From NCBI RefSeq assembly GCF_013347965.1, contig NZ_CP048810.1, forward strand, positions 6,509,501 to 6,573,500: a DNA stretch of 64,000 nucleotides, written 5' to 3'. This DNA is from Pseudomonas bijieensis. GTDB taxonomy: Bacteria; Pseudomonadota; Gammaproteobacteria; Pseudomonadales; Pseudomonadaceae. The translations under genes and the position numbers were made by a program. The notes below the pieces were generated by a model. It saw nothing but the letters and a program-made list of their open reading frames with translations, was not told the DNA's origin and searched no databases. This document shows, one piece after another, positions 1-54,223 of the stretch; positions within the stretch are counted from its first letter, which is position 1, and the number at the start of each line of letters is the position of its first letter.

Positions 1-411
1 TGGATAGTTGTAAAGCATGATGGGGAGAGCGGCGGCGCGGTCCACCGCCTTGACATGCAGTGCGATCTCTTTTTGCGTCGGCAGTGCGTAGGGCGGCGAG
101 CCAACCAACAGCGCGTCGGCCTTGATGGCTTTCGCCGCTTCGGCGTAGGCGACCGAGTCTTCAGTGCGGATGGCGCCGGTACCCACGATCAGCGGTAGAC
201 GACCGCGCAGCACGTCCTTGGCCTGGGCGGCCAGGTCGAAACGCTCCTGAGCGGTGTGGGCATAATATTCGCCGGTTGAGCCACCGATAATGATGCCGTG
301 CACCTTGGAGTCGACCAGATACTCCAGGACTTCGGCGAAGGCTGTCTTATCGATACTGCCGTCAGAGGTCAGTGGAGTAACGGCCGGTGTGTAAATGCCT
401 TCAAATTTCAT
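1..411 (-). CDS. Dihydrodipicolinate synthase/N-acetylneuraminate lyase family protein (partial, C-terminus outside window)
   Basis: The first 137 residues of a class I aldolase-fold lyase, beginning MKFEGIYTPAVTPL and running off the left edge. The family motif is present as GGSTGEYYAH at about residues 42-51, followed by the strands LIVGTGA and ALLVGSPPY and ending at LPIMLYNYP, which is the region of the catalytic Tyr. The Schiff-base Lys lies outside the window. Members condense or cleave pyruvate-derived 2-keto acids, and some act as deaminases in hydroxyproline breakdown (HypD-type). It is the last visible gene of the leftward importer-oxidase unit and 142 bp downstream of the FAD oxidase. 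The exact reaction is unknown. Confidence 0.88.
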   Translation of the reverse strand, partial: MKFEGIYTPAVTPLTSDGSIDKTAFAEVLEYLVDSKVHGIIIGGSTGEYYAHTAQERFDLAAQAKDVLRGRLPLIVGTGAIRTEDSVAYAEAAKAIKADALLVGSPPYALPTQKEIALHVKAVDRAAALPIMLYNYP

Positions 412-553
412 TAATCTCGCTCCAGTTAATGTCACTGCCTATCAAGCGGCGCTGGCTCGATAGAGTCAGCGCAGCCAGTTTTTCAACCAAGGGAGACCAC
501 GTGCTGAAGATCGAGCAAGTGGTCTTCAACTTCTTCAAGTTTGTCGGGGCGGG

Positions 554-1894
554 TCAACTTTCTTTACCGGCTCGGTACTGCCCCCAGCGCAAACTTATAT
601 TGACGCCTGCTGAAACCAGTGGGGCGGGTGGGTTAGGAGATGGGCCTGGTGATTTCAAGACGAAATCGATGAGTTCAGAGTGTTCCCCAGCCAGCCAATC
701 CGCCAAGAGTTTGCCGGTGGCGGTGCCGCGGGTAACACCTAGCCCATTGCAGCACAGTGCCCCATAGACATTGGGCGACAGCTCGCCGAAATAACCCATA
801 TGGTTACGTGAAAGAGCCAGTGCGCCTCCCCAGGTATATTCGAACGTCATCTCAGGCAACATGGGAAAGCGTTGCTCGAAAGATGCCTGATGCCTGGCGA
901 CAAAGCGTTTCAGATATTTTGAATCGCTGCGGCCGTCGGGGTTAAAGCTGAAACTGTTACGGATCAAAAGACGGTTGTCCGGTGTACGACGTACCGTGGT
1001 ACCGAATGGATCCGCAGGAATGACACCCCAATAAGGCCGGCCGCCGAGGCGAGCCTGCTCTTGTTCGGTCATGGGGCGGGTCAGGCTGGCATAGGTGAAC
1101 ACCGGTAGCATTCGCCCTTTCAGGAAGCCGAAACTCATGCCAAAGGCATTATTGGTCAGGATCAGTTTGTCGGCGGTGATTGAACCCGCGGCGTGCTTGA
1201 GCACCGTCTTCGTGCCGTACTCCACATGAGTGATCGCGGTGTTTTCATACAGCGTCACATTATTGGGGAGGCTGTCGGCCAAACCTTTGACCAGCGCCGA
1301 AGGCTGAAGCAAGGAAGTCCCTGGTGTAAATAACGCCTTGCGGTAGAAATGCGTGCCGATATGTTCGGGCAGTTCGCCAGCCTCGATCATCTGGTAGGGC
1401 TGATCCAGTTTATCGAGTCCGCGACGGTAGGCCTCCAGGACGGCGATGCCTCTTGGTTCAACGGCTGCCTGATATTTGCCGCAATGCTTCATTTGGCAAT
1501 CGATGTTGTGGCGTTCAACCAACTCTTTTAAATAACCCAGGCCACTCAGATTAAGTTTCAGTGTGGTTTTCGCCGTGGCGATATCGCCTATGTAATCCTC
1601 CGCGGCGATGTCATGCGGCAAATCGATAGCGAACCCGGCATTGCGACCGGAAGTGCCAAAGCCCACTTCCTGAGCGTCGATCAACAGGATGGAATCGTCG
1701 GGGAAATGAGCCGCTAGCTGACGGGCGGCGGCAAGCCCTGTAAAGCCAGCACCGACAATCACCCAGCGTGCGCTGCTATGGCCTTGATGGGCGGGCTTGA
1801 TCTGGCGCCCCTTGCTCAAGTGGTACCACCCGCAAGATGGATCATCGGCAGGTAACGAAGATACTTTTAACATTTCAAGATCCTGTTCATTCAA
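554..1894 (-). CDS. FAD-dependent amine/amino-acid oxidase (DAO/PuuB-like family)
   Basis: A 446-residue flavoprotein. The dinucleotide-binding motif VIVGAGFTGLAAARQL starts near residue 46, followed by SGRNAGFAIDLPHD, a pattern typical of the DAO/gamma-glutamylputrescine-oxidase-like family. A C-terminal GGALALSRNHMGYFGEL and NGLGVTRGTATGKLLADWL complete the FAD domain. Such enzymes oxidise a C-N bond (secondary or N-methyl amine, D-amino acid or polyamine) and pass electrons to O2. It is cytosolic, with no signal peptide. It lies downstream of a betaine importer and upstream of a lyase, so oxidation of an imported, partly demethylated amine is a reasonable inference. The substrate is unassigned. 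Confidence 0.85.
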   Translation of the reverse strand: MNEQDLEMLKVSSLPADDPSCGWYHLSKGRQIKPAHQGHSSARWVIVGAGFTGLAAARQLAAHFPDDSILLIDAQEVGFGTSGRNAGFAIDLPHDIAAEDYIGDIATAKTTLKLNLSGLGYLKELVERHNIDCQMKHCGKYQAAVEPRGIAVLEAYRRGLDKLDQPYQMIEAGELPEHIGTHFYRKALFTPGTSLLQPSALVKGLADSLPNNVTLYENTAITHVEYGTKTVLKHAAGSITADKLILTNNAFGMSFGFLKGRMLPVFTYASLTRPMTEQEQARLGGRPYWGVIPADPFGTTVRRTPDNRLLIRNSFSFNPDGRSDSKYLKRFVARHQASFEQRFPMLPEMTFEYTWGGALALSRNHMGYFGELSPNVYGALCCNGLGVTRGTATGKLLADWLAGEHSELIDFVLKSPGPSPNPPAPLVSAGVNISLRWGQYRAGKES

Positions 1895-2082
1895 CCGATC
1901 CGACGTCAGTCATGCAAAAAAGGGTGCTTGGTCATTTCACGTGTGCTGAGAATCCAACGGACGTAAATGTTAAGTCTTTGCAGTTTCAATTAACGATGTG
2001 ATCAGGCGGTATCGAAGTGCGTTTGCATTGCTTGGGGTATCGAATCTATCGGCTTACATCGAACGGAAAACCATTAAAGGAC

Positions 2083-2104
2083 GGGGCAGTCATCGACTTG
2101 CCCC
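2083..2104 (-). terminator. Weak hairpin downstream of the ProX-type gene
   Basis: The arms GGGGCA and TGCCCC are separated by ten bases, just past the stop codon at 2120 of the leftward substrate-binding-protein gene. The T tract after it on the minus strand is poor (GTCCTTTAA), so it may be a processing or stabilising hairpin instead of a full terminator. Confidence 0.3.
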
Positions 2105-2119
2105 ACCTTGGTACGGCTA

Positions 2120-3148
2120 TTAATTATTAGCTTGTGTCGCCGCAGCGCGAGCTGTTTGCAACCATGCATCAAATTGCTGCCGATGGGCTGCTACCCACTC
2201 CTTGGCGTGACGGCGGATATCTGCGGGTTTTTTCTCGCCCTGTTGCATTTTCAAGTTCTGGGCACTTTCGTCAGCCGTGGTGATTTGCATCACCGAAAGG
2301 AACTTCAAGGCCGCCGGATTCTTCTCGGCGAAGTCTTTATTCAACACGGCCTCGACCTTATCTACCGCAAAGCCGAGATTCTTGCCCTTGTACATCGTGT
2401 CGACATCATTCTTGCCGTCAGGCAGGTCGGTTTTCGGTACTTCCAGCCATACCACATCCTTGTCTTCTACCAGAACAGTGGCGATCCATTGTGGGACCCA
2501 GGTGAAGTAGAGAATCGGTTGCCCTTCCTTGTAACGGGTAATGGTGTCAGCCATCAGTGCGAAATAGGAGCCCTGGTTGACGGTGACTGTTTTATCCAGG
2601 TCATAGGCCTTCATGTGGTGGGCGATGATCAGCTCGCAGCCCCATCCAGGATTGCAGCCCGTCAGGTCTGCTTTGCCGTCGCCGTTGGTGTCGAACAGTT
2701 TGGCGATTTCCGGTTTCTTCAAGTCAGTGAGGTACTTGATGCCATGGGCTTCAGCGGTCTTCTTGTCGATCAAATAACCTTGGAGCACGCCGGGCATGAT
2801 GTCGCCCGCCTTGACCATGGTTTTATCGCCCCCGGCCTGCTGGAAGAATTTATCGTGCAGCTTGTCCCACAAGTGCACGGTAAAGTCCGCATCACCGCTA
2901 CCCAAGGCCATCATCATGACGCCGTACTCGGTCTCCTTGGGCTCCTGCACCTTGTAGCCCAGCTCTCGGAGGCCTTCCATGGCTACTTCGCCACGGAATC
3001 GCTCTTCAGCGATAGAGGGGAAGATGGGGGTGACCTTTACACCGTCCCCCGGTTGGTTCGCCGAGGCGTTTGCGCACAGGGACGTAGCCGCAATGGCGAA
3101 AGCTGTAGCGCAATTGAGAATGCGACGGGAAAGCTTGAATTCAGACAT
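2120..3148 (-). CDS. proX: Glycine betaine/proline ABC transporter substrate-binding protein (ProX/OpuAC family)
   Basis: Periplasmic binding protein of about 342 residues. The start at 3148 (MSEFKLSRRILN) is preferred over an ATG 33 bases upstream because it gives a standard Sec signal peptide (RRILNCATAFAIAATSLCANA) and has an AAGG about 10 bases ahead. The mature part contains the OpuAC-type features DGVKVTPIFPSIAEERFRG, LGYKVQEP, GDADFTVHLWD and TWVPQW, which in this family form the aromatic cage for quaternary ammonium ligands. It is the third gene of the leftward ABC unit (ATPase, permease, binding protein). The family binds glycine betaine, proline betaine, choline or carnitine, and the ligand here is not determined. 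Confidence 0.9.
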   Translation of the reverse strand: MSEFKLSRRILNCATAFAIAATSLCANASANQPGDGVKVTPIFPSIAEERFRGEVAMEGLRELGYKVQEPKETEYGVMMMALGSGDADFTVHLWDKLHDKFFQQAGGDKTMVKAGDIMPGVLQGYLIDKKTAEAHGIKYLTDLKKPEIAKLFDTNGDGKADLTGCNPGWGCELIIAHHMKAYDLDKTVTVNQGSYFALMADTITRYKEGQPILYFTWVPQWIATVLVEDKDVVWLEVPKTDLPDGKNDVDTMYKGKNLGFAVDKVEAVLNKDFAEKNPAALKFLSVMQITTADESAQNLKMQQGEKKPADIRRHAKEWVAAHRQQFDAWLQTARAAATQANN

Positions 3149-3205
3149 CTTCACGTACCTTTTTTGGGTTTTTATCTTCAAGTGCGGCAGATCGAATAAG
3201 AGGGT

Positions 3206-4159
3206 TCAAGCGGTCTTGCTTCGCCCCGCAGGCTGTTTTGCGCCGAACAGGCGTAGCAGAAGGCCTACGGGACCGGTGTGATACCAGCGCAGGCTCGGGT
3301 CGGCTCCGGTGCGCGCGCCCATGGCTTGGGTCAAGCGGTCAAGGAAGATGGCAAGCAGCACCAAGCCAGTCCCACCGACCGTGGCCAAGCCCATGTCCAG
3401 GCGGCCGATGCCGCGCAGGACCATCTGGCCAAGACCGCCCACCGAGATCATCGAAGCGATCACCACCATCGACAGCGACAGCATCAGGGTCTGATTGAGT
3501 CCAGCCATAATGGTTGAGGTCGCCAGTGGCAACTGAACCCGGGTCAGCATCTGCCGCGGTGTGCAGCCAAAAGCGCGGGCGGCTTCTATTTTGTCCTCCG
3601 GTACCTGGCGAATGCCCAGATTCGTCAGGCGCACCAGAGGGGGAAGGGCGAAGACAATGGTCACAAGGATGCCCGGCACGTTGCCGATGCCGAACAGCAT
3701 GACGACAGGCACTAGATAAACGAACGCCGGCAGTGTCTGCATGGCATCGAGTACGGGCCGTAGGACCTTTTCCAGATTGTCACTGCGGGCGCAGAGAATC
3801 CCCAGTGGGATACCTAGCAGGGCGCAAAAGAATACCGAAGTCAGTACGAGCGCCAGGGTGGTCATCGACTCGGACCAGACACCGATAAGGCCCAGCAGTG
3901 TGAGCGTCACAAAGCACAGCAAGGCCATGCGTTTACCGGCTAGTTGCCATCCCAGCAATGAAGACAGGATGATCCCGATGCTGGGTGGAATGCTCTGCAG
4001 AATGTATTCGACGCCGTTAAGTACTTGGTCGATCGGCCAGCGGATGGCGCGAAACACATCGCGAAAGTTGTGCACCAGAAAATTGAGGGTGCTTTCCACC
4101 CAGTCACCCAATGGAAGGGTGAGGACTTGAAACGGGTCGAGAAAACTGAACTCGGACAT
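3206..4159 (-). CDS. proW: Glycine betaine/proline ABC transporter permease (ProW family)
   Basis: A 317-residue inner-membrane permease with several hydrophobic helices (for example IGIILSSLLGWQLAGKRMALLCFVTLTLLGLIGV and LALVLTSVFFCALLGIPLGIL). It carries the EAA-type coupling loop EDKIEAARAFGCTPRQMLTRVQLPLA that contacts the ATPase. The N-terminal amphipathic stretch of about 60 residues is typical of ProW. It lies between the ATPase gene (93 bp upstream) and the binding-protein gene (57 bp downstream), forming a complete importer. Confidence 0.92.
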   Translation of the reverse strand: MSEFSFLDPFQVLTLPLGDWVESTLNFLVHNFRDVFRAIRWPIDQVLNGVEYILQSIPPSIGIILSSLLGWQLAGKRMALLCFVTLTLLGLIGVWSESMTTLALVLTSVFFCALLGIPLGILCARSDNLEKVLRPVLDAMQTLPAFVYLVPVVMLFGIGNVPGILVTIVFALPPLVRLTNLGIRQVPEDKIEAARAFGCTPRQMLTRVQLPLATSTIMAGLNQTLMLSLSMVVIASMISVGGLGQMVLRGIGRLDMGLATVGGTGLVLLAIFLDRLTQAMGARTGADPSLRWYHTGPVGLLLRLFGAKQPAGRSKTA

Positions 4160-4252
4160 TAGGGCTTACCTCTTCATCTTCACCGCTGCGACGTCATGGA
4201 GGCCGCAGGTACTTCAGGTCAGGGACGCGCCAGCGTAGATGGGCGCGGCTGT

Positions 4253-5413
4253 TTAATGGCGGCTCAGCGTTTGCAGTAACTCGCTCTTTGACAGGGTCCC
4301 GGTGAGAGCGCCCGAACGGTCGAGTACAGGGACCGGGTAGGGCAGGTTGGCGGCGATCTCCAGTACTTCGTGCAGGGGGGTATCGGTAAAGACAGGCTGC
4401 TGTTTGTGCTGGGTGTAATGCGTGTTGCCACCCGCGCCGCTGGTATCGATATCGACCACCCCGAGTAGTTGTCCAAGTTCATCGATCAAGTAACCAAATG
4501 GCAGGCCGGCCTTGAAATGTGGCGCTTGGCCATTCGCTTTACGAACCGATTCCGGATTGAGCCTGGCCACGTCGCCTGCCTTGAGAATCCGGGAACTATC
4601 GAATCCTTTGAAGAACGTGCGTACATAGTCATTGGCCGGCTGACTGATCAACTCTTGAGGTGTGCCGATCTGTACCACCTGGCCCCCCTCCATGATCGCG
4701 ATGCGGTGACCGATGCGAACAGCTTCCTCAATGTCGTGGGAAATGAAGATGATGGTTCGCTTTTGCTCGGCTTGCAGGCGAATGAGTTCTCCCTGCATCT
4801 CGCTGCGGATAAGCGGGTCCAGAGCGGAAAAGGCTTCGTCCATCAGCAGGATGGTCGGGTCGTTGGCAAGCGCGCGGGCCAGGCCTACGCGTTGCTGCAT
4901 GCCGCCGGAAAGTTGATGTGGATAACTGTGCTCCTGTCCAGCAAGACCGACTTGGGCGAGGGCTTCCCTGGCGCGGCTATGCCGTTCCTTTTCACCAATG
5001 CCGGAAATTTCCAGCCCAAAGGCGGTGTTTTCCAGAACGCTCATGTGCGGCATCAAGGCAAAGGACTGGAACACCATGCCCATCTCTTTACGGCGGACAT
5101 CAAGAAGGGCTTTATCAGCCAGGCCCGTAATTTCTCGACCATTCAGATAAATACTGCCTGAAGTGGGCTCGATAAGGCGGTTGAACAATCGCACCATCGT
5201 GGACTTCCCAGAACCTGAGAGTCCCATGATCACAAATATTTCACCGCGCTTAACAGCAAAGCTGGCGTCAAAAACACCAATAACTTGACCTGTTTTCTCA
5301 AAGACTTCTTTTTTGCTTGCCCCGGCGGCGAGCATTTTCATCGCCGTGTCAGGTTGCGCGCCAAATATCTTAAAAACGTTCTTAACAGAAATGATTTCGT
5401 CTGGGCTAGTCAT
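4253..5413 (-). CDS. proV: Glycine betaine/proline ABC transporter ATP-binding protein (ProV family)
   Basis: A 386-residue ABC ATPase. Walker A GLSGSGKST is at 64-72, the Q-loop VFQSFALMPH near 114-123, the signature LSGGMQQR at 168-175, and Walker B ILLMDE at 188-193. A C-terminal CBS-like segment of about 100 residues ends LSKSELLQTLSRH. In ProV/OpuAA relatives this segment senses ionic strength or controls activity. It is the first gene of the leftward unit and starts 333 bp from the divergent LysR gene. Given its catabolic neighbours, it may serve nutrient uptake more than osmoprotection. Confidence 0.93.
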   Translation of the reverse strand: MTSPDEIISVKNVFKIFGAQPDTAMKMLAAGASKKEVFEKTGQVIGVFDASFAVKRGEIFVIMGLSGSGKSTMVRLFNRLIEPTSGSIYLNGREITGLADKALLDVRRKEMGMVFQSFALMPHMSVLENTAFGLEISGIGEKERHSRAREALAQVGLAGQEHSYPHQLSGGMQQRVGLARALANDPTILLMDEAFSALDPLIRSEMQGELIRLQAEQKRTIIFISHDIEEAVRIGHRIAIMEGGQVVQIGTPQELISQPANDYVRTFFKGFDSSRILKAGDVARLNPESVRKANGQAPHFKAGLPFGYLIDELGQLLGVVDIDTSGAGGNTHYTQHKQQPVFTDTPLHEVLEIAANLPYPVPVLDRSGALTGTLSKSELLQTLSRH

Positions 5414-5746
5414 CGCGTCCCTCCTTTGCGTGTAACCCTACAAGCGCGCGAAATCGAATTGAGCTCGAGCGTTGGTAATTTAGGCGGGCAGTAATAAAAG
5501 ATAGATCTGCGCATGACATGTACCTGTTTTTTATTGTTTGCCCTTGGGGTCGGGCTTTTTTTCAATCTATAAGTATCCCGATTTTAAATCCAACAACATT
5601 TACAGGGCTTTATGGATAACCTAACGTTATCGAGACGCGCTAAAACGACCGCCTTTGCGCAATCACGACGCTTTTGTATGGCCTGGGCTAGGCTATTGAG
5701 TTACGCTCCGCCGCTTTCGCGGATGATAGGAGTGTGAGGGCTTACC
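5414..5746. promoter_or_regulatory. Divergent control region between proV-type operon and LysR gene, with a LysR-type palindrome
   Basis: This 333-bp AT-rich stretch has no coding sequence and lies between two divergent genes. At 5615-5631 it contains the perfect palindrome GATAAC-CTAAC-GTTATC. It fits the T-N11-A layout of LysR-regulator boxes, with T at 5617 and A at 5629. The core ATAAC-N5-GTTAT recurs at 6788-6802 in front of the Rieske oxygenase gene. The likely user is the LysR regulator encoded next to it. No confident -35/-10 pair is called. Confidence 0.6.
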
Positions 5747-6715
5747 ATGCTCAGCAGACACGTTGACCCCGATACATTACTGCTTAGAATGCCTTCCCTT
5801 CGGGCTGTCAGGGCATTCGTCGCCGCCGCTAAATATGAAAGCTTCACTCGGGCAGCGGAGGCCCTGTGCGTATCGCAAGCCGCGATCAGTCGGCAGATTC
5901 GAGAGCTTGAAGACTCGTTGGGCGCTCAACTGTTCATGCGTGCCGGGCGCACGGTAGAACTAACCGCCGAGGGAAAGATATTTTTTGAGGCGGCGCAACT
6001 GTCGTTCGTTAATATCGCACAAGCGGCTGAAAGGATTCGTACCGCTCCGACGCAGAAGCATATCCTGACTGTTTGTTGCTCACCCGCATTCTCTGCATTA
6101 TGGCTGTCCGAGTATCTTCCAGAGTTTCGGGCGACTAACCCGGATATTGAATTCAATCTGATTACCACTCAGAACTTTGTGAATATGGAACCTGGCATAG
6201 AGCCGGACATCATCATCTCAAAGATTCGCAAGGTGGGGGATGGGTATAAGAGTTATCAGTTGTGCCACGATATTATTTATCCTGTTTGCTCCCCAGCGTT
6301 TTTGGACGCACATCCCGAACTGAACTCGCTTGAAGGGGTGCGCGATTCTTCGCTACTTAATCTAAGCCCCTATGGACGGTCGGGTGTGGCTGAACATGTG
6401 GACTGGGGGGTGTGGCTGGCTTTTCTGAACGTTGATATTGATGAGCGTCCTGCCGACTGTCCGCCTATTTTTCATGCGAATGATTACAACCTGATCATGA
6501 ACATGGTCTTGACCCATCAAGGCGTTGCGCTGGGCTGGAACCAGCTTGTCGGGGCAATGGTCGAGAGAGGGCAGCTCGTTCGCCCTGTCGAGCATCAGGT
6601 GACGCTTCGAAACAGTCTTCATTATGTAGCCTGCAATGAAAGGACTGAATACGAAGATGCCTGTCGGCGAGTCCGGGACTGGATTCTTTCTAAGTTTTCC
6701 AGATGGAGCATATGA
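5747..6715 (+). CDS. LysR-family transcriptional regulator (GcvA-like)
   Basis: A 322-residue regulator. The N-terminal winged helix-turn-helix (ALRAFVAAAK-type segment, then FTRAAEALCVSQAAISRQIRELEDSLGAQLF) occupies about residues 19-75. The rest is a periplasmic-binding-like effector domain with PVCSPAF and HANDYNLIMNMVLTHQGVALGW, typical of the GcvA subgroup. ATG 5747 is preceded by GAGG about 12 bases upstream, and an alternative ATG at 5789 begins MPSLRAVRAF. It sits between the two divergent betaine-type units, so it is the obvious candidate regulator of both, probably responding to the imported compound or a product. Confidence 0.9.
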   Translation: MLSRHVDPDTLLLRMPSLRAVRAFVAAAKYESFTRAAEALCVSQAAISRQIRELEDSLGAQLFMRAGRTVELTAEGKIFFEAAQLSFVNIAQAAERIRTAPTQKHILTVCCSPAFSALWLSEYLPEFRATNPDIEFNLITTQNFVNMEPGIEPDIIISKIRKVGDGYKSYQLCHDIIYPVCSPAFLDAHPELNSLEGVRDSSLLNLSPYGRSGVAEHVDWGVWLAFLNVDIDERPADCPPIFHANDYNLIMNMVLTHQGVALGWNQLVGAMVERGQLVRPVEHQVTLRNSLHYVACNERTEYEDACRRVRDWILSKFSRWSI

Positions 6716-6990
6716 GTTTTTTTTCATTTAAATCTTCTCGGTCGGTACAGCGATTGTAAGTAAAGTCTTGCCTGGAATCGGTGGGTCATAACGCTAAGTT
6801 ATCAGTTGAACGACGAAAATGTAGTTTTGCCGACAGGATAGGCTGTCGTACCCTTTGTGTTAAATATGGCTAAAACATGCGTATTCAGCGGTTGCGTTGG
6901 GCAATGCTCCGCGTAGGACCCGTTGGGCCATGACACCGTTTTCTGGGCGTACTTACCATTAACCGTCAGGTTGATGCGTAGAGGATAATA
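6716..6990. promoter_or_regulatory. Promoter region of the Rieske oxygenase gene with a second ATAAC-N5-GTTAT palindrome
   Basis: A non-coding AT-rich stretch. The palindrome ATAAC-GCTAA-GTTAT at 6788-6802 has the same arms and spacer length as the one at 5616-5630. A smaller inverted repeat CGACAG/CTGTCG follows at 6831-6848. The oxygenase gene has a good ribosome site (AGAGGA) directly before its ATG at 6991. Confidence 0.55.
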
Positions 6991-8226: not shown

Positions 8227-8344
8227 TTTCCTTGCAACGATGGCCGGCGCTTTCGGCGTTGGTCATCGCTACTACGGCGTGCAAACAGCCCGGGAAGGGC
8301 GGTTGGTGCGTCCGCTGGAGAAGAACAAGAAAGGGCTCGATTCA

Positions 8345-9244: not shown

Positions 9245-9308
9245 GTGGCGTGCCGGGCGTGAATGATGTCGTCGTGAAGGGCAGAATCACACTCGAAATG
9301 GGGGATAT

Positions 9309-10196: not shown

Positions 10197-10659
10197 GCCT
10201 CTTATTCGCTATAGGCATAAGCATAATAGAATATATTCCTTGGTCGTATTAGCCATCGTGCTAGATTGTTCCTACCGGACAACCGGATATGTTCAATCCC
10301 ATTTTATGGTACGACTATGTCCGGCGCCCGAATCTTCCAAATCAGCCTTGAGGCTCTGTCCTGTGACCGAACCCAAGGAGCGATTTCTCACTCCGGCAAT
10401 ATCCGCCTTAGTTCTGCCTCCATTACCGTTCCATTCGTGACCGGTAAACCGCTCCCGTGTCAGGCCAACAGCGAAGCCTGCAGTGCAATCAGCGAAGGCT
10501 TGGCATTTCTTCTCTACGCCATGTGAATCGTCGCTGTTGGGCACTTCCATACCATTAGTCTAGCCAGCCATCTTCAGGTAATGCCGGTCCTGCGGGCCGC
10601 AACTTGATGCGTGAGCGAATGGGCGCCTGTTCAAAGCAATATCTACGCGATTTACAACA
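10197..10659. other. 463-bp gap, no gene recognised
   Basis: No convincing open frame or RNA was recognised here. Short frames on both strands have no family features. The first part is AT-rich and could hold the promoter of the downstream hydroxylase-importer operon, but no -35/-10 pair stands out. The ATAAC-N5-GTTAT palindrome of the neighbouring promoters was not found here. Confidence 0.4.
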
Positions 10660-11604
10660 ATGCCAAATTATTTGGATGAAGCTCATCGAGCTGAAATCGT
10701 TAAGCTGAACACGACATTCACCAGTCAAACGGAATGGCCAACCTGGCTTTTGTTGGTCGGATTCTACCTGGCCTGGGCTTTCGTTGTTTTTTATGGGGAC
10801 GCGCTGGGCGAAGTATTCACCATCGTCTTGTTGATTCCGCTGGTCGTGCTCTGGATGTCGATTCAGCATGAGCTTATCCACGGTCATCCAACGCGCTGGC
10901 CAGCCATAAATAAAGCCCTGGGATATCTGCCGTTCGCCGTATGGTATCCCTACGATATTTACAGGGACACGCACCTGGCGCATCACAACGACGAGGTGCT
11001 GACGGTGCCTGGTCAAGATCCAGAAAGTCGTTATGTCACAAGTGCCTTTTGGTTGCGCTCACCTGGTTATACGAGGGTGTTGCTATGGGTAAATAAGACC
11101 TTGGGCGGGCGATTGATCATCGGCGCTCCGCTGGCAGTCATTTCACTTGTGGAAGCCGAGATAAAGGGGCTGTTTCATACTGGACGAAGCCATTGGCGGA
11201 TGTGGGCTACGCATCTATCAAGTGTTGCCGTGTTGCTGGGACTGGTTGAGCAATACAGCGCCATCAGCGCGATCCAGTACATCTTCTTTGTTTCGCTTCC
11301 AGCGTTATCCATTGCAATGATCAGGTCGTTTTACGAGCATCGGCCGTCAGCGCTTCCAGAACACCGCACGGTTATCAATGAATCGTCAGGGCTATTGAGT
11401 TGGCTTTTTCTGAATCTCAACCTTCATCTGGTTCATCACGATCTTCCCGGTCTGCCCTGGTTTTACTTGCCACAGGTGTATAGGGCCAGGCGTGAACAAT
11501 GGATAGCTCGAAACAATGGCTACGTCATTCATGGCTATTTCCAGTTATTGCATAGACATCTGCTCAGTCCAGTGGATTGTCCGCGCCATCCTGCCGAGCA
11601 ATAA
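10660..11604 (+). CDS. Membrane fatty-acid-desaturase-superfamily (di-iron) hydroxylase/desaturase
   Basis: A 314-residue integral membrane protein. The three histidine boxes that bind the di-iron site are clear: HELIHGH at about residues 68-74, HLAHHND at about 106-112, and HLVHHDL near residue 265. Hydrophobic helices WPTWLLLVGFYLAWAFVV and GEVFTIVLLIPLVVLWMSI precede the first box. The superfamily includes acyl desaturases and carotenoid or alkane hydroxylases. It is only 30 bp from a betaine-type ABC ATPase gene and shares its strand, which is unusual for a lipid enzyme. Hydroxylation of the imported small molecule is possible but unproven. Confidence 0.82.
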   Translation: MPNYLDEAHRAEIVKLNTTFTSQTEWPTWLLLVGFYLAWAFVVFYGDALGEVFTIVLLIPLVVLWMSIQHELIHGHPTRWPAINKALGYLPFAVWYPYDIYRDTHLAHHNDEVLTVPGQDPESRYVTSAFWLRSPGYTRVLLWVNKTLGGRLIIGAPLAVISLVEAEIKGLFHTGRSHWRMWATHLSSVAVLLGLVEQYSAISAIQYIFFVSLPALSIAMIRSFYEHRPSALPEHRTVINESSGLLSWLFLNLNLHLVHHDLPGLPWFYLPQVYRARREQWIARNNGYVIHGYFQLLHRHLLSPVDCPRHPAEQ

Positions 11605-11633
11605 AAAATGAAAGCTAATCTAGGCGTTGGAAA

Positions 11634-12611
11634 ATGATACGTTTTGAAGCCGTCAAGAAAACTCATAAGGGCAGCCCGCGAATGGCCGTGAGCGATTTGA
11701 CGCTTCATGTCCGGGAGGGTGAGATCTGCGTGTTTGTCGGGCCAAGCGGTTGCGGCAAGACCACCATTTTGCGAATGATCAATAGGCTCGATACCCAGGA
11801 CAGTGGCCGCATCTGTGTAAATGGGGTTGCGACCGACGAGCTTGACGTCGTTACGTTACGCCGTGGCATTGGTTTCATGATGCAAAGCTCGGCTTTATTT
11901 CCTCACCAGACCGTTGCAGAAAATATCGGCGCTGTACCGCGGCTCTTGGGCTGGGGTAAGTCTAAAATCCGCCAGCGCGTGAGCGAGCTCATTTCCCTGG
12001 TCGGACTTCAGCCGGAGTTTCTTGACCGATACCCGAATCAGCTGTCGGGCGGGCAGCAAAGCCGTGTCGCCCTGGCGAGGGCTTTGGCCTCGGACCCACC
12101 GGTTGTATTGATGGACGAACCCTTTGCCGCGCTTGATCCGGTGATACGCGAGCGATTGCAGGATGAACTGGTTGCGCTCCAGCGGCGTTTGCACAAGACC
12201 ATCATTCTGGTAACGCATGACATGGAGGAGGCGATCAAGGTCGGCGACCGGATTGCAATATTTGAGGGGGAAGGGAGGCTTGTTCAGTTCGACACTCCTC
12301 ACAATATCCTGGCCCATCCTGCTAGCGATTTCGTGAGGGGGTTTATTGGGAAAGACCCTTTATTGAAAAGACTTACGCTGATGAAAGTCGCCGATCTTCC
12401 GGCGGAAATTGACGGTGAATCCACTGTACCCGCTCCAGAGCTGGCAACCGTTACGATAAATGACTCATTGCATCACGCATTGGTGAAAATCCTCAGTGCC
12501 CCAACCGGTGTTGTAGTGCGGGTGGATGAGGCAGGAGGTTACGAAGGTTGCATCTCGATCGAGTCCCTTTATAACGCCTTGAGCGGATCCCGACCTGGAA
12601 GCCTGCAATGA
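11634..12611 (+). CDS. Quaternary-ammonium ABC transporter ATP-binding protein (OpuCA/OsmV family)
   Basis: A 325-residue ABC ATPase. Walker A GPSGCGKTT is at 36-44, the Q-loop MMQSSALFPHQT near 82-93, the signature LSGGQQSR at 137-144, and Walker B VVLMDEPFAALD at about 157-168. The C-terminal 80 residues form a short CBS-like tail, VTINDSLHHALVKILSAPTGVVVRV. The sequence fits the OpuCA/OsmV branch, whose partners are two separate permeases and a lipoprotein or periplasmic binding protein, exactly the genes that follow. Its end overlaps the next start by 4 bp. Confidence 0.9.
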   Translation: MIRFEAVKKTHKGSPRMAVSDLTLHVREGEICVFVGPSGCGKTTILRMINRLDTQDSGRICVNGVATDELDVVTLRRGIGFMMQSSALFPHQTVAENIGAVPRLLGWGKSKIRQRVSELISLVGLQPEFLDRYPNQLSGGQQSRVALARALASDPPVVLMDEPFAALDPVIRERLQDELVALQRRLHKTIILVTHDMEEAIKVGDRIAIFEGEGRLVQFDTPHNILAHPASDFVRGFIGKDPLLKRLTLMKVADLPAEIDGESTVPAPELATVTINDSLHHALVKILSAPTGVVVRVDEAGGYEGCISIESLYNALSGSRPGSLQ

Positions 12612-13237
12612 TGGATGGGGCGTGGATTGTTGATAATTGGCAAGCGATTGTTCAGTTGTTATTGGATCACATTCAGTTGGTCACACTGGGCCTGTGTATA
12701 GGCATGCTGGTGGCGGGCGCAATGGTGTTTTTGACACTGTGGAAGCCTGTCTTGGCTCGGCCCATGATTTATGTCAGCGGAATACTGTTCACCATTCCTT
12801 CCCTGGCACTGTTTATTTTGATAATGCCTTTTACCGGTTTGTCCAAGACCACATCGGTTATTGGCCTGAGTCTGTATTCCTTGCTGATTATTCTACAAAA
12901 CACCTTGGCGGGACTTGCCAGTAACCCCCCGGACGTCCTGGAGGAAGCCCGCGCGCTAGGGTATACGCGCATGCAGAGGTTTCTGGGTGTTGAACTTCCA
13001 CTGGCCTTGCCTTCGTTATTGGCAGGGCTACGAACGACATCAGTTACCTTGGTCGGGTTGGTGACTGTTACTGCGTTAATTGGTCAAGGTGGGTTGGGCC
13101 AGCTGTTCATTACCGGGTTGGCGCAAAGTTTCACTACACCTGTAGTGGTCAGCTTGGTCCTGACGGTGATGTTGGCGCTGTGTTTTGATTTTCTGTTTTA
13201 TTCAATCAATAAATGGCTGGTCCCTTGGGTGCGCTAA
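12608..13237 (+). CDS. Quaternary-ammonium ABC transporter permease 1 (OpuCB/OsmW family)
   Basis: A 209-residue permease with about six membrane segments, such as LGLCIGMLVAGAMVFLTLW and GILFTIPSLALFILIMPF. It carries the ATPase-coupling loop VLEEARALGYTRMQRFLGVELPLALP. It overlaps both neighbours by a few bases, so translation is probably coupled. Two small permeases per system is the rule in OpuC/Osm-type importers of glycine betaine, choline and carnitine. Confidence 0.9.
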   Translation: MMDGAWIVDNWQAIVQLLLDHIQLVTLGLCIGMLVAGAMVFLTLWKPVLARPMIYVSGILFTIPSLALFILIMPFTGLSKTTSVIGLSLYSLLIILQNTLAGLASNPPDVLEEARALGYTRMQRFLGVELPLALPSLLAGLRTTSVTLVGLVTVTALIGQGGLGQLFITGLAQSFTTPVVVSLVLTVMLALCFDFLFYSINKWLVPWVR

Positions 13238-13920
13238 TGAACATGATCGCAAGTGTCTACCATTGGTTTTCTCTTCCTGAAAATTGGTTGGGAGAAAACG
13301 GCATACTGACGCGGCTGGCGGAGCATATTTATTACGTATCTTTAAGTATCACTATTGCTTGTGCGATAGCGTTGCCGCTCGGCGTATTCATGGCTAATTA
13401 CCGCAAGGGCGCAAACCTGGCGATAGGGGTGTTCAATCTTGGCCGCGCATTGCCTTCTCTCGGCATTGTGATACTGGCAATCATGGTCATTGGCTATGAA
13501 ACCAGCACGGTCATTATCGCGCTGGTTGTCATGAGCATACCGCCGATATTAACCAACACCTATGTCGGTATCGATCAGGTTGATTCGTCGTTGAAAAGTG
13601 CGGCCACCTCCATGGGCATGCGTAGATGGCAAACGTTTATTCAACTTGAACTGCCTTTGGCCTTTCCGCTGATTTTTTCCGGTTTCAGATCGGCCCTGGT
13701 GCAACTTATTGCAACGGCAACTATCGCCGCCTATGCGGGATTCGGTGGGTTGGGCAGGTTTCTCATCGACGGACTGGGTCGCAACGATACACCGCAAATT
13801 ATTGGCGGCGCATTGGTGGTGTCGGCCCTTGCGATTGTCAGCGAGTGGCTCTGCTCGACGATAGAAACACTCATGGTTCGAAAATGGCGAACAGGGAATG
13901 TTGAACTGAGCGCTACATGA
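13237..13920 (+). CDS. Quaternary-ammonium ABC transporter permease 2 (OpuCD/OsmY-type partner)
   Basis: About 227 residues. ATG 13237, overlapping the previous TAA as TAATG, is chosen over an in-frame ATG 24 bases upstream inside the preceding gene. Hydrophobic segments VSLSITIACAIALPLGVFM and LGIVILAIMVIG flank the typical permease loop SSLKSAATSMGMRRWQTFIQLELPLAFP. It is the second half of the heterodimeric membrane channel of the OpuC-type importer. Confidence 0.9.
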   Translation: MNMIASVYHWFSLPENWLGENGILTRLAEHIYYVSLSITIACAIALPLGVFMANYRKGANLAIGVFNLGRALPSLGIVILAIMVIGYETSTVIIALVVMSIPPILTNTYVGIDQVDSSLKSAATSMGMRRWQTFIQLELPLAFPLIFSGFRSALVQLIATATIAAYAGFGGLGRFLIDGLGRNDTPQIIGGALVVSALAIVSEWLCSTIETLMVRKWRTGNVELSAT

Positions 13921-13968
13921 TCAGGGCATTTGAAAGTGCCTATTAATTTTGCAGAGGTACAAGTCCAA

Positions 13969-14874
13969 ATGAAAAACAAACAACGTTCGAAGGCTCGCTC
14001 AGTGCAATCGGTTTCATTGTTGCTGGGGTTAGGCTTGCTGGTGGGCAGCACGTTTGCCAGTGCTCAGTCCATCACCATAGGCGGGGCCAATTTTTCCGAG
14101 CAGACGATTCTCGCAAACATTTATGCGTCAGCCTTGAAAAATGAAGGGATAGAAGTCAAGACCCGGCTCAATCTGGGCAATCGCCAGATCATCGCCAAGG
14201 CCTTGGAAAATGGGGATGTCGACGTTGTACCCGAATACATAGGATCACTGCTGAGTTTTTATGATGACAAGACAGCCCTGACCAGCCAAAAGGAGATCGT
14301 CAGCGCTTTGCAACAGAAGTTACCGGCGGGCCTGCAGTTGCTTGAGCCTTCCGCGGCGGGCTCTATTACGGCTTGGGCCGTCACTAAAAAGACCGCAGAA
14401 AAGTACAACTTGCACACCTTGTCCGACCTGGCGCCTGTCTCAGCTGATTTAACGTTGGGCGGACCACCGGAAGTCGCCACTTCTGCCTTGGGCCTGCCTG
14501 GGCTGAAAGCGGTCTACGGCATCAATTTCAAGAGCGTCAAATCCCTGGACATGGGCGGGCCCTTGTCGCGGCTGGCGTTGAATTCAGGCGCTATCGACGT
14601 CGCCACCGTCGTCTCCACGCAAGGCATCCTGGCGAAAGACCCCTGGGTTGTGCTCGAGGACGACAAGCATCAACAACCCCTGCAAAACATCACGCCACTG
14701 GGGCGCAAGGCACTGCTAACCCCGGAAGTCACCAAGGTGCTCAACGAAGTTTCCGCAAAGCTGACCGATGACGATCTCAAGCAACTCAATCGCCTTGTTG
14801 ATATCGATCACAAGGATCCGGCAAAAGTCGCGGCGCAGTGGGTCGCCGAAAATACCGTCAAGACGGCCAACTGA
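13969..14874 (+). CDS. Quaternary-ammonium ABC transporter substrate-binding protein (OpuCC/OsmX family)
   Basis: About 301 residues. The start at 13969 (MKNKQRSKARS) is preferred over an ATG 39 bases earlier because it yields a clean Sec signal (SVSLLLGLGLLVGSTFASA), with AGAGG about 12 bases upstream. The mature protein begins QSITIGGANFSEQTILANIY and contains GNRQIIAKALENGDVDVVPEYIG, the characteristic OsmX/OpuCC substrate-binding block. There is no lipobox Cys, so it is a free periplasmic protein. It completes the four-gene importer and is followed 36 bp later by a flavin monooxygenase. Confidence 0.9.
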   Translation: MKNKQRSKARSVQSVSLLLGLGLLVGSTFASAQSITIGGANFSEQTILANIYASALKNEGIEVKTRLNLGNRQIIAKALENGDVDVVPEYIGSLLSFYDDKTALTSQKEIVSALQQKLPAGLQLLEPSAAGSITAWAVTKKTAEKYNLHTLSDLAPVSADLTLGGPPEVATSALGLPGLKAVYGINFKSVKSLDMGGPLSRLALNSGAIDVATVVSTQGILAKDPWVVLEDDKHQQPLQNITPLGRKALLTPEVTKVLNEVSAKLTDDDLKQLNRLVDIDHKDPAKVAAQWVAENTVKTAN

Positions 14875-14910
14875 ACATGAATGCGATGTTGGTGAGGTCG
14901 CGGAGGCGTT

Positions 14911-16239
14911 ATGTCCAATAAAAGTATGATCCTGAATCTGTTCTTCTTTAATCCCCAAGGGGACCATCGTTTTTCCTGGCGCCACCCGTTGTCACCGACC
15001 CAGGAAATATTGACGCTGGGCTACTACGTAAAACTGGTGCAGGCGGCCGAGGCGGCGAAGTTCGATGCGGTTTTTGTCGCCGATCACGTGGCGGTCTGGG
15101 ACTCCGTGGCCAGCGGCTTGAGGCACTATGCCAATGCCCGCCTTGAGCCCATTACGCTCTTGTCCGCACTGGCCGCTGTGACCGAGCACATCGGTCTGAT
15201 GGGCACGGCTTCAACGTCCTATAACGAGCCCTTCAACATCTCGCGGTATTTTGCATCGCTGGACTATCTCAGTTCAGGGCGAGGCAGTTGGAATATCGTG
15301 ACTTCCTGGCTGGAAGAGGAGGCTTCGAATTTCGGATTGTCAGGCGTGGCGAAACACGGCGATCGTTATCTGCGGGCCGATGAATTCATTCGTGTCGTCA
15401 AACAGCTTTGGGACTCATGGGAGGACGGGGCGCTTGAATTCGACAAGGGCACCGGCGATTTTGCCGATCCATCGAAAATCCATCCGATCCATCACAAAGG
15501 GACGCATTTCAGCGTGCGAGGGCCGCTTAACGTGCCGCGTCCACCTCAAGGGCATCCGGTCTTGGCCCAGGCGGGGTCTTCTGAAGCGGGCAAGGACCTG
15601 GCCGCGGCCCACGCGGACGTGCATTTCTGTTTCATCAATACGGTTGAAGAAGGACTGGCGTACAGGGCCGATTTGAATCGCCGGCTCGAGTTGAAGGGCA
15701 GGCATTCCAGTGATCTGAAAATCATTACCGGTGTGCTTCCGGTGGTTCTGGAGGATGAGACTGAGGAGGAGCGACGTCGGCAACTGGAGGACAGTCTCAT
15801 TATCGATGCCGTGGCGATTGATCTGGTCTCCAGCTACACCCGCCTCGACTTGACGGGGCTCTCGCCGGACGGCCCCCTGCCAGCGTTGCCAGATGAGTCT
15901 GAGTTTGATGGCATTCGAACTGAGCTGGCCCTGCTCAAGAAGTACGATCCTTCCTTGTCTATCCGCGAAATAGGGCGCCGCTTGGTCAAGAGCTCCAGTA
16001 CCTGGCTACTGATCGGAACGGCGGAACATATAGCCGATAAGCTTTCAGCGTTATACGAGTCGAATGCCGTCGATGGCTACAACCTCATGTTCCCGTTTTT
16101 GCCGACGGACTTCGAAGCATTCACGCGTGGCGTGGTGCCTTTGCTGCAAGCCAAAGGGATTTTCCGCAAGGAATATGAACCCGGGACGCTAAGGGACCGC
16201 TTGGGCTTGAAAAAACCGGCTAACAGCTTCTTGCTGTGA
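14911..16239 (+). CDS. LLM-class flavin-dependent monooxygenase (NtaA/SnaA/DszA family)
   Basis: A 442-residue bacterial-luciferase-fold monooxygenase. Family features are FFFNPQGDHRFSWRHP at the N-terminus, FDAVFVADH near residue 52, the block TSYNEPFNISRYFASLDYLSSGRGSWNIVTS, and HPVLAQAGSSEAGKDLAA. Such enzymes use FMNH2 supplied by a separate reductase and O2 to cleave C-N or C-S bonds (nitrilotriacetate, EDTA, dibenzothiophene sulfone). No flavin reductase gene is nearby. It directly follows the betaine-type importer, so the imported compound probably contains a bond attacked by this flavoenzyme. Confidence 0.88.
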   Translation: MSNKSMILNLFFFNPQGDHRFSWRHPLSPTQEILTLGYYVKLVQAAEAAKFDAVFVADHVAVWDSVASGLRHYANARLEPITLLSALAAVTEHIGLMGTASTSYNEPFNISRYFASLDYLSSGRGSWNIVTSWLEEEASNFGLSGVAKHGDRYLRADEFIRVVKQLWDSWEDGALEFDKGTGDFADPSKIHPIHHKGTHFSVRGPLNVPRPPQGHPVLAQAGSSEAGKDLAAAHADVHFCFINTVEEGLAYRADLNRRLELKGRHSSDLKIITGVLPVVLEDETEEERRRQLEDSLIIDAVAIDLVSSYTRLDLTGLSPDGPLPALPDESEFDGIRTELALLKKYDPSLSIREIGRRLVKSSSTWLLIGTAEHIADKLSALYESNAVDGYNLMFPFLPTDFEAFTRGVVPLLQAKGIFRKEYEPGTLRDRLGLKKPANSFLL

Positions 16240-16281
16240 TCAGCGCCAAGCGCCGATAACAGTCCTTTAATTGGATTTCAT

Positions 16282-17064
16282 ATGACCAGCGATCTCTCCA
16301 TGTACCTCGCTCCCGCAAGGGTTTTACAGGCACAGGAAGCCTGGCTTCGACGTGTCCTGGCGATTTTGGGCGAGCACCGCGAGCAAGAGCAAATTGTTGA
16401 GCCAGCGGCCCATTGGCTTTCCCCGGACCTCTTGTTGTCCCAGACCTGCGGCTATCCGTTAGTCACATCGCTGCGGGGAAGGGTGAGGCTGATCGGGCGC
16501 CCAAGCTATGAGCTTGCCCATAGCTCGGGCGGTGACCATTGCAGTTTGCTGCTCTGTAGAGCTGATTCGGCCGTGACTGATCTGGCGGGTTTCCAGGGCA
16601 GCCATGGACTGATCAACGCTCAGGATTCCAATTCAGGAATGAATCTATTGCGTCATACACTTGCCGGGATCAGCGACCGTGGTTTTTTCTCAAGACTAAC
16701 CTTCACCGGATCGCACAGAGAGAGCATGCGAAGGCTGAAAGATGGCGACGGTGATTTGGCTTCTGTCGACAGCGTCACCTACGACTATCTTGCGAGGGAT
16801 AACAGTGATGAGATCGAAGGCCTGAGAGTCCTGGCGCGAAGTGTGCGCAGTCCCTGCCTGCCCTATGTAACCTCGATTCGGCGAACGCCTGCGGACGCAG
16901 ACTCAATCAGGAAGGCAATGAATGAAGCCTTGAGCCAACTGCCGGAGGTTTCTCGAACGCTGGCTATCAGGGAAGTGCTGCCAGCCAGTGAGGCGGACTA
17001 TGAATGTCTGCTGGAATATGAACGCCGTGCGCTCGATTGCGGCTTTTCGTTTGTATCGTCCTGA
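16282..17064 (+). CDS. PhnD-like phosphate/phosphonate-binding-family protein without signal peptide
   Basis: A 260-residue protein of the PhnD/periplasmic-binding type. The central segment QGSHGLINAQDSNSGMNLLRH and the following TGSHRESMRRLKDGDGDLASVDSVTYDYL match the PhnD-family pattern, in which a repeated SH-x-S and DxAxxDS contact the ligand. No signal peptide or membrane segment is visible at the N-terminus (MTSDLSMYLAPARVLQAQ), so it is probably cytoplasmic. Stand-alone PhnD-like proteins may be ligand sensors or chaperones. It is the last gene of the rightward unit and converges on a chemoreceptor gene. Confidence 0.75.
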   Translation: MTSDLSMYLAPARVLQAQEAWLRRVLAILGEHREQEQIVEPAAHWLSPDLLLSQTCGYPLVTSLRGRVRLIGRPSYELAHSSGGDHCSLLLCRADSAVTDLAGFQGSHGLINAQDSNSGMNLLRHTLAGISDRGFFSRLTFTGSHRESMRRLKDGDGDLASVDSVTYDYLARDNSDEIEGLRVLARSVRSPCLPYVTSIRRTPADADSIRKAMNEALSQLPEVSRTLAIREVLPASEADYECLLEYERRALDCGFSFVSS

Positions 17065-19040: not shown

Positions 19041-19333
19041 GACTTCTCCCGCGGAATTTTTTAAGTGTTGGAACGGCGGAAACAGCAGTGGTTGGCGTTG
19101 CGAGTCTCTGGAAGGGAAAAGCGCCCATGCCTACAGCCAATGTATCGACCAAAGTCGTAGGCACTTGAGGCCGTCCGTTTTGGCGCGGGTCGATCAGTAG
19201 AGGGCGTCGGTGCGATTGCACCCGGTTTGACTAGCCTGGAAGATAGCGTGGTTTGCTCTGTCTCTTTGCCTTGTGGTTAACGGCACCCACCTGCAGCAAA
19301 CCCTCATCGTCTTTAAGGTATTAACGAGGCCCT

Positions 19334-51033: not shown

Positions 51034-52824
<1,791 letters not shown>

Positions 52825-52890
52825 TTATCGCTTTCGGTCAACGTAAAGAATGAAGCCAGGTTCTCGTTTCTTATGCAGAGCAGAGCTGGA

Positions 52891-53565: not shown

Positions 53566-53575
53566 TGCCAAAGCC

Positions 53576-53989: not shown

Positions 53990-54223
53990 GCTGGAAATCC
54001 TTAACAGAGAGCAAAGGTCTCTGAGCTTGAATGAAATAACGCAGTGACGATATGTCGCAGCAATCAATCGCGGTGATTTTATGGCTAAACACCGGGCAAG
54101 TAAAATTCCTATAGCGAAATTATTTATTGGAATAAGGACATAGCGCGCCCCCAAGACCCTGCAGCCCAGGCCCCATGGGCATTGGCCGACTATTCATTAA
54201 TAATATTTCGTGCGGAATGCAAC

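Follow-up and report, generated by a model that had tools for sequence, protein, structure and literature searches.

Results

Gene content of unit A and of the region to its left

The window analysed here is a 64,000-nucleotide stretch of DNA from Pseudomonas bijieensis (NCBI RefSeq assembly GCF_013347965.1, contig NZ_CP048810.1), whose 6.73-Mb genome is a single contig, and it covers bases 6509501-6573500. Its first 17,064 bases had been interpreted, in a sequence-only reading, as a candidate catabolic island for a quaternary-ammonium compound. Comparison of gene neighbourhoods splits these bases into two unrelated units, unit A (positions 1-10196, continuing to the left of the window) and unit B (10660-17064). 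We favour, with somewhat better than even confidence, a reading of homology and gene order in which unit A would be the right part of a pyrrolidine-betaine region serving hydroxyproline-betaine catabolism, with a DddP or MmgE/PrpD protein in the place of the epimerase HpbD, and in which unit B would be separate. The genes of unit A, including one that lies just outside the window, are as follows.

-1983 to -382 (window positions), minus strand: aldehyde dehydrogenase (ALDH) reading frame, overlapping the 3' end of the DHDPS1 gene
1-435 in the window (genome 6509009-6509935), minus strand: DHDPS1, a lyase of the dihydrodipicolinate synthase (DHDPS) family, 308 residues, cut by the window start
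554-1894, minus strand: DAO, an FAD-dependent D-amino-acid-oxidase-like enzyme (PF01266, 179 bits)
2120-3181, minus strand: ProX-type betaine-binding protein (NCBIfam ProX, 464 bits, cut-off 215)
3206-4159, minus strand: ProW-type permease (NCBIfam ProW, 461 bits, cut-off 439)
4253-5413, minus strand: ProV-type ATPase (NCBIfam proV subfamily, 401 bits, cut-off 327)
5747-6715, plus strand: LysR regulator (PF00126/PF03466)
6991-8226, plus strand: Rieske oxygenase alpha subunit; by prediction an enzyme that N-demethylates betaines, Stc2/HpbB group (PDB matches, tree)
8240-9244, plus strand: DHDPS2, a second DHDPS-family enzyme, accessory to unit A (PF00701, 156 bits)
9309-10196, plus strand: EamA exporter, accessory, at the right end of unit A (PF00892)

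Both betaine-class importers named by the sequence-only reading are present, ProX, ProW and ProV on the minus strand (2120-5413) and an OpuC-type system on the plus strand (11634-14874), and the four oxidative enzyme types, the two DHDPS-family genes, the EamA exporter and the LysR regulator lie where it had placed them. ProX and ProW exceeded the cut-offs of their NCBIfam equivalog models and ProV fell just below its own (443.7 bits, cut-off 444). DAO scored 147 bits against the AmaA model, below the cut-off of 600. The lysine expected to form the Schiff base in DHDPS2 is present by eye. EamA is the final gene of a block common to the window, P. zanjanensis and P. thivervalensis, the last two carrying the closest named relatives of the Rieske protein (98%).

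To the left, the minus-strand operon of unit A extends about 5.5 kb beyond the window and runs through the rest of DHDPS1, ALDH, a DddP homologue and a pair of GbdR-type regulators, of which one exceeds its cut-off. A dehydrogenase that had been reported missing is thus accounted for: it seemed missing because the window edge cuts the operon, and the ALDH frame sits just outside. The DddP homologue scored 620.6 bits against the NCBIfam DddP model (NF043017), above the cut-off of 600. Farther left lie a 2-oxoglutarate (2OG) oxygenase, a cupin of the dimethylsulfoniopropionate (DMSP) lyase family (PF16867), an Ldh_2 protein and a choline-type binding protein, as well as EtfA, EtfB, a protein of the old yellow enzyme (OYE) type, a class III alcohol dehydrogenase and proC; beyond proC come ProV/ProW, a second Rieske protein (39% identical) and a GbcB-like reductase that scores below its cut-off. 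The OYE-type protein, encoded about 12-14 kb beyond the left edge of the window, shares 79% identity (1142 bits) with a Paracoccus pantotrophus protein annotated as 'N-methyl-L-proline N-demethylase HpbA', and the same P. pantotrophus cluster also matched EtfB (59%), EtfA (52%), proC (38%) and the cupin (43%, partial). Genome positions 6486306-6499538 (loci L188 and L005), which contain the second Rieske gene, the GbcB-like reductase, LysR genes, ProV/ProW, a TetR gene, proC, the alcohol dehydrogenase, HpbA and EtfAB, are probably a proline-betaine unit adjoining unit A; this proline-betaine-like set reaches about 23 kb left of the window. Clusters for (hydroxy)proline betaine in Pseudomonas and Paracoccus repeatedly contain the DMSP-lyase-family cupin (L005:11770-12405, L175:1799-2380 and L172:16556-17230; recognised by PF16867 in L005 and L172 and by annotation in L175).

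Conservation of unit A was assessed by mapping 32 reference proteins onto 80 named loci that surround homologues of the Rieske protein (the best 80 of 283). Flanks of 10 kb or less were fetched on each side, 70 of the 80 loci measure at least 20 kb, and incomplete loci were retained. LysR was found in 69 loci, ProV in 59, DHDPS1 in 58 and ProX in 55; ALDH was found in 48 at 40% identity and in 47 at 45%. DAO of the window type occurs in 42 loci, with a second DAO type in 20 others. DHDPS2 accompanies Rieske, DddP or HpbD-like genes in L009, L010, L015, L028, L084, L172, L173, L180 and L182.

A Rieske oxygenase of the Stc2/HpbB group beside a predicted hydroxyproline module

The Rieske protein of unit A had been described as GbcA-like. 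GbcA is its best NCBIfam match, but at 501 bits it remains below the cut-off of 670 (NF058607), and glycine betaine monooxygenase was rejected as its identity; the GbcA of this genome, at 4.74 Mb, scores 808 bits against the same cut-off. The closest PDB chains were 3n0q (506 bits), 3vca (489 bits) and 4qup (488 bits), of which we take 3vca and 4qup to be Stc2. In a tree of 21 rows, the window protein fell in a clade of 15 gammaproteobacterial rows with support of 100/100, and the nearest sequences outside that clade were the Rieske proteins of the Paracoccus pantotrophus hpb cluster, Sinorhizobium meliloti pSymA, Ruegeria TM1040 and P. versutus. A split with 92/89 support sets apart the GbcA of this genome and the 39% identical Rieske protein, both flagged as long branches. 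By homology and tree position, the Rieske protein is placed in the Stc2/HpbB betaine N-demethylase group. The S. meliloti pSymA protein, presumably Stc2, the stachydrine demethylase, is 52% identical to it and stands in a separate Rieske clade.

A close likeness is to the hpb catabolic cluster of Paracoccus, reportedly described by Zhao in 2013 and by Kumar in 2014, whose gene names we take from the P. pantotrophus annotation. Both have HpbA, EtfA/B, proC, a Rieske protein of the same group (52%), a betaine ATP-binding cassette (ABC) importer, a LysR regulator and enzymes of the DAO, DHDPS and ALDH superfamilies. They differ in that the window genome is without HpbD (at E 1e-60) and has DddP instead, that the ProU genes here are only 43-54% alike, and that no reductase adjoins the Rieske gene.

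DHDPS1 and ALDH point to hydroxyproline metabolism. They are about 73% and 69-72% identical, respectively, to genes on plasmids of Agrobacterium tumefaciens, Rhizobium indicum and Allorhizobium ampelinum, where the orthologues of DHDPS1 and ALDH run together with a DAO relative, betaine-type ABC genes and a 4-hydroxyproline epimerase (565, 557 and 566 bits in the three rhizobia; cut-off 376). These rhizobial runs differ from unit A in that their epimerase belongs to the proline racemase family and no Rieske gene lies in the stretch shown. Across a survey of 199 genomes, in which the window genome is G000, DHDPS1 occurs in all 28 of the Rieske-bearing genomes and in 16 of the 171 others, and among 16 Rieske-free Pseudomonas loci with DHDPS1, of which 19 kb or less was fetched, 6 show a 4-hydroxyproline epimerase. 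A passage of PMC4113996 gives the hydroxyproline route as 4-hydroxyproline epimerase (4HypE), D-amino-acid oxidase (DAAO), DHDPS and ALDH, and ties that route to organisms living on 4-hydroxyproline betaine. Enzymes of the DAAO, DHDPS and ALDH superfamilies are all adjacent in unit A, an agreement at the level of superfamily only. DHDPS1 is accordingly a predicted dehydratase/deaminase, and the pattern seen in Pseudomonas, as judged from these gene sets, is that of a hydroxyproline module with an added betaine front end (ProU, LysR, Rieske). This bears out the earlier suggestion of a quaternary-amine locus with hydroxyproline-betaine logic, in which a Rieske step, FAD-dependent oxidation and a DHDPS-family step follow one another. 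A gene set of DAO, DHDPS, ALDH and a GntR regulator was also seen on a Klebsiella pneumoniae IncR plasmid (L150) and an Acinetobacter schindleri plasmid (L149); the stretches shown lack a Rieske gene.

Several findings weigh against this assignment. DHDPS1 is only 28% identical to the DHDPS of the hydroxyproline cluster of this genome (1.23 Mb) and 25% to that of S. meliloti pSymB, both of which we take to be HypD/LhpC; close similarity of DHDPS1 to a HypD/LhpC-type enzyme was thus not found in these two comparisons, and because of these low identities its role rests on context. The DAO proteins of the rhizobial runs are closer to the second DAO type (63-66%) than to the DAO of the window. A Rieske reductase is absent from unit A; the nearest, which lies to the left at about 29 kb from the Rieske gene, is the GbcB-like protein (362 bits, cut-off 500; 39% identical to the Paracoccus reductase), and another homologue, 47% identical to the Paracoccus reductase, lies at 4.74 Mb. 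The known type of hydroxyproline cluster was itself considered as an identity for unit A and rejected: the genome has one at 1.22-1.24 Mb, and its DHDPS is only 28% alike.

The distance of DHDPS1 from the hydroxyproline-cluster enzymes leaves room for a different substrate. Unit A could degrade another betaine, for instance homarine, or only proline betaine, with the DHDPS-family enzyme performing another step, and the second Rieske gene with its reductase, ProV/ProW, TetR and proC farther left do resemble a proline-betaine set. A homarine pathway has been reported in environmental bacteria, according to a passage of PMC13390433 citing Ferrer-Gonzalez 2026; among the papers listed, no other was seen to cite that work, and the homarine passages of three further papers gave no pathway genes. 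We regard such a substrate as distinctly unlikely, given that DHDPS1 and ALDH accompany 4-hydroxyproline epimerase in rhizobia and in 6 of the 16 Rieske-free Pseudomonas loci, that HpbD-like genes occur with the same Rieske clade, that an HpbA homologue of 79% identity lies in the region, and that N-methylglutamate dehydrogenase was not recognised among the genes scanned.

DddP and MmgE/PrpD alternate in Rieske-bearing genomes and may take the place of HpbD

HpbD is the known 4-hydroxyproline-betaine 2-epimerase and belongs to the enolase superfamily. The sequence-only reading had noted that the racemase expected in such a route was missing, and an HpbD-like query found no match in the window genome at E 1e-60; proline-racemase-family genes are present at 1.22-1.23 Mb, far from unit A. 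We found two other proteins recurring together with the Rieske gene. An MmgE/PrpD protein (Pfam; hereafter PrpD) is encoded in 48 of the 80 Rieske loci, counted by tblastn at 45% identity, and DddP in 12, and a single locus (L041) has both. At most 600 bp separate PrpD from the Rieske gene in 18 of the 48 PrpD loci, and DddP from it in 4 of the 12 DddP loci. In L176, one of 15 hand-picked loci that were measured, an HpbD-like gene starts 1.4 kb before the Rieske gene.

The same alternation was seen at the level of whole genomes. The Rieske gene is present in 28 of the 199 genomes. PrpD is present in 19, comprising 18 of the 28 Rieske-bearing genomes and 1 of the 171 others, and close DddP (at least 81% identity) in 9, comprising 8 of the 28 and 1 of the 171. 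No genome of the 199 has both PrpD and close DddP. Fisher tests, uncorrected for kinship, gave 5e-28 for the association of the Rieske gene with PrpD or DddP and 1.4e-5 for the mutual avoidance of PrpD and DddP in the 28 genomes. Two Rieske-bearing genomes have neither, G156, which carries an HpbD-like gene in the locus, and G024, which has none of the three. The G156 protein matched PDB 4e8g (551 bits) and 2pmq (529 bits), which we take to be HpbD structures, and is 65% identical to proteins annotated hpbD. At E 1e-60, HpbD-like proteins occur in 4 of the 199 genomes: G156, G188, G060 and G047. G188 has two Rieske genes and two HpbD-like genes (62% and 66%), the 62% copy lying right before a Rieske gene, and the G047 protein is only 35% identical and occurs with no Rieske gene. 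In the Rieske tree, one subclade is common to DddP-bearing (L088, L173) and HpbD-bearing (L172, L176) loci, and another mixes DddP-bearing (window, L012, L013) and PrpD-bearing (L022, L043) loci.

From this distribution of genes, we propose that PrpD and DddP would replace HpbD at the step that abstracts the alpha proton. In its full form, this proposal would have the alpha carbon of pyrrolidine betaines epimerised by three interchangeable and unrelated folds, HpbD (enolase), MmgE/PrpD and DddP (M24), so that the dddP genes of these pseudomonads, annotated as DMSP lyases, would encode betaine epimerases and a new epimerase family would exist among MmgE/PrpD proteins. We put this forward tentatively, as a possibility that falls short of an even chance. 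Among the literature matches listed (title and start of abstract), none links DddP or MmgE/PrpD to proline or hydroxyproline betaine.

A number of observations tell against the proposal. G188 has DddP elsewhere in addition to its HpbD-like genes, G060 has PrpD plus a 50% identical HpbD relative elsewhere, G024 bears the Rieske gene with no PrpD, DddP or HpbD, and L041 holds both PrpD and DddP. Neither PrpD nor DddP lies within the fetched flanks of 21 of the 80 Rieske loci, and 8 of the 80 carry a 4-hydroxyproline epimerase besides PrpD, a combination that fits if the former serves the free amino acid. The DddP gene of the window genome is about 9 kb from the Rieske gene, in a divergent operon. 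Weaker DddP relatives (37-48% identity) turn up in another 25 genomes, including 5 with PrpD. The nearest solved kin of PrpD are distant, being decarboxylases (50 bits) and iminodisuccinate epimerase (46 bits). Because the genomes are related, the Fisher values are only a guide. Finally, DddP matches 4rzy, 4s01 and 4b28 over its full length and, aligned to 4rzy, keeps D295, D297, D307, Y366, H371, D377, E406 and E421, metal-binding or catalytic residues of the DMSP lyase; their retention would also permit DMSP lysis.

This last point raises the alternative that DddP is a true DMSP lyase, that ProU also imports DMSP, and that osmolyte genes are bundled with the Rieske gene and do not form one pathway. 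By the NCBIfam cut-off, full-length homology and the conserved catalytic residues, the protein matches the DddP DMSP lyases of the M24 family. The PF16867 cupin in the region and in the HpbD-bearing locus L172, and the ability of OpuAC-type binding proteins to bind DMSP, would fit as well. DMSP lyases span several folds, Alma1 falling in the aspartate racemase superfamily, as stated in a passage of PMC8163506. We nevertheless consider a DMSP lyase unlikely here. The partners of DddP at this locus are the Rieske gene, ProU and hydroxyproline-type genes, and a lyase would leave unexplained the mutual exclusion of close DddP and PrpD, which holds in 28 of 28 Rieske-bearing genomes. Close DddP is found in 8 of those 28 against 1 of 171 others. 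In addition, no gene for acrylate use was recognised among the genes scanned. AcuI was considered as a sign of DMSP use beside the L172 cupin and rejected, the candidate being a medium-chain dehydrogenase/reductase (MDR) family dehydrogenase with 51 bits against an AcuI cut-off of 440.

Unit B is a separate gene set

The genes of unit B occupy the remainder of the 17,064 bases, all on the plus strand.

10660-11604, plus strand: membrane di-iron (FA_desaturase) protein (PF00487, 100 bits, three His boxes)
11634-12611, plus strand: OpuC-type ABC ATPase (PF00005)
12608-13237, plus strand: ABC permease 1 (PF00528)
13213-13920, plus strand: ABC permease 2 (PF00528)
13930-14874, plus strand: OpuC/OsmF-type substrate-binding protein (PF04069, 182 bits)
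14911-16239, plus strand: luciferase-like monooxygenase (LLM) class FMN monooxygenase, NtaA/DmoA family (TIGR03860, 478 bits, cut-off 279.7)
16282-17064, plus strand: PhnD-like protein (PF12974; N-terminal signal not obvious by eye)

The three His boxes ascribed to the di-iron protein are present in its translation as HxxxH, HxxHH and HxxHH, and the PhnD-like gene had gone unmentioned. The idea of one 17-kb island, in which the LLM and di-iron enzymes would act in the same quaternary-ammonium pathway as unit A, draws on the adjacency of the genes in the window genome and on the betaine-importer theme common to both halves. Conserved neighbourhoods separate them. The di-iron protein, the OpuC importer, the LLM enzyme and the PhnD-like protein each occurred in 0 of the 80 Rieske loci at 40% identity, and since 70 of these loci measure at least 20 kb, unit B within 10 kb on either side would have shown. 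Conversely, 20 di-iron loci, chosen by hand from the 38 of 144 genomes that gave a match, contained no match to the Rieske, DAO, DHDPS or ALDH references at 35% identity. The LLM gene (E 1e-150) is found in 5 of the 199 genomes, of which only G000 carries the Rieske gene, and in G080 a binding protein of the unit B type and the Rieske gene are more than 500 kb apart. The intergenic gap between EamA and the di-iron gene is 463 bp; from Rieske to EamA and inside unit B, neighbouring genes are at most 64 bp apart. Promoter and terminator sites between the units were about as many as in shuffled sequence.

A site in P. thivervalensis (L010) bears on the boundary. From the end of EamA to the end of the chemoreceptor gene it measures 219 bp, compared to 6.9 kb in the window; window positions 10196 and 17098 align with L010 positions 13243 and 13463, with identities of 84% and 91% on the two sides. 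Unit B was therefore either gained in the window genome or lost in P. thivervalensis at this site. With the units separated by the neighbourhoods and by this site, these data show no link between the LLM and di-iron enzymes and the betaine pathway. We rejected the single island on these surveys and on the site that lacks unit B, and hold it to be highly improbable; the split of conserved neighbourhoods in two is the very outcome that the sequence-only reading had named as speaking against its island. The genes that come directly after unit A in P. thivervalensis, for a dCache chemoreceptor and for a GbdR-like regulator of the AraC type (window 17097-20377), are possibly a betaine-sensing pair. 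G+C is 0.52-0.56 over positions 1-16000, which cover the stretch of units A and B; elsewhere, at window 52001-56000, it falls to 0.567 against 0.60-0.63 on the flanks.

The core of unit B is the OpuC-type importer and the LLM enzyme, and the di-iron and PhnD-like genes are optional. In all 5 genomes that carry it, the LLM gene comes immediately after the gene for the binding protein, and G176 keeps the importer and LLM with no di-iron or PhnD-like match. In G083, the di-iron gene next to the importer is fragmentary, and a PhnD-like match is lacking there. The PhnD-like gene occurs in 17 of the 20 di-iron loci, adjoining the di-iron gene in 14 and with the importer between them in 3. In Pseudomonas loci L112-L126, genes for an extracytoplasmic-function (ECF) type sigma factor and an OpuAC-type binding protein often come after the di-iron and PhnD-like pair, each family being present in 10 of the 20 loci.

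Unit B is a separate set, probably for scavenging another cationic compound. One explanation, which we offer as possible and not as probable, is that the importer and the LLM enzyme, with the di-iron and PhnD-like proteins as optional additions, import and oxidatively open a small cationic nitrogen or sulfur compound for nutrient supply. Their constant adjacency and the case of G176 favour it, as does the LLM's membership of the NtaA/DmoA family (the family name of TIGR03860), which includes enzymes that cleave C-N and C-S bonds. The LLM enzyme is over the TIGR03860 cut-off, like YtnJ, DszA and EmoA in family, but it follows an OpuC-type importer and its best solved relative, YtnJ/MoxC, reaches 298 bits. 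Arguing against a fixed unit, the di-iron gene adjoins the PhnD-like gene with no importer in 14 of 20 loci, and G080 has the importer without the LLM gene. The binding protein scored 112 bits against the OsmF model, below the cut-off of 400; related PDB chains include Lmo1422 and EgtUC, and an ergothioneine transporter was rejected as a candidate at only about 100 bits to EgtUC.

Proposed route and its meaning

The substrate, the order of steps and the epimerase role set out here for unit A are predicted from sequence. ProXWV would import 4-hydroxyproline betaine, and its alpha carbon would be epimerised by DddP here and by MmgE/PrpD in most relatives, replacing the enolase-fold HpbD. Both the DddP and PrpD folds can abstract an alpha proton. 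DddP acts on DMSP by removing the alpha proton, and the beta carbon then loses dimethyl sulfide; the beta carbon of hydroxyproline betaine has no leaving group, so that epimerisation would be expected, not elimination. The Rieske oxygenase, using a borrowed reductase, would then take off one N-methyl group as formaldehyde, and HpbA with EtfAB would take off the second. DAO would oxidise the resulting cis-4-hydroxy-D-proline to a cyclic imine, which DHDPS1 would dehydrate and deaminate to alpha-ketoglutarate semialdehyde, and ALDH would convert this to alpha-ketoglutarate.

The hydroxyproline-betaine route is described for alphaproteobacteria. If the proposal is true, the route would also exist in Pseudomonas, and two candidate enzyme families would be named for one of its steps. 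The presence of dddP in such genomes would then not signify dimethyl sulfide production, which bears on the role of DMSP-lyase-like proteins outside marine DMSP use.

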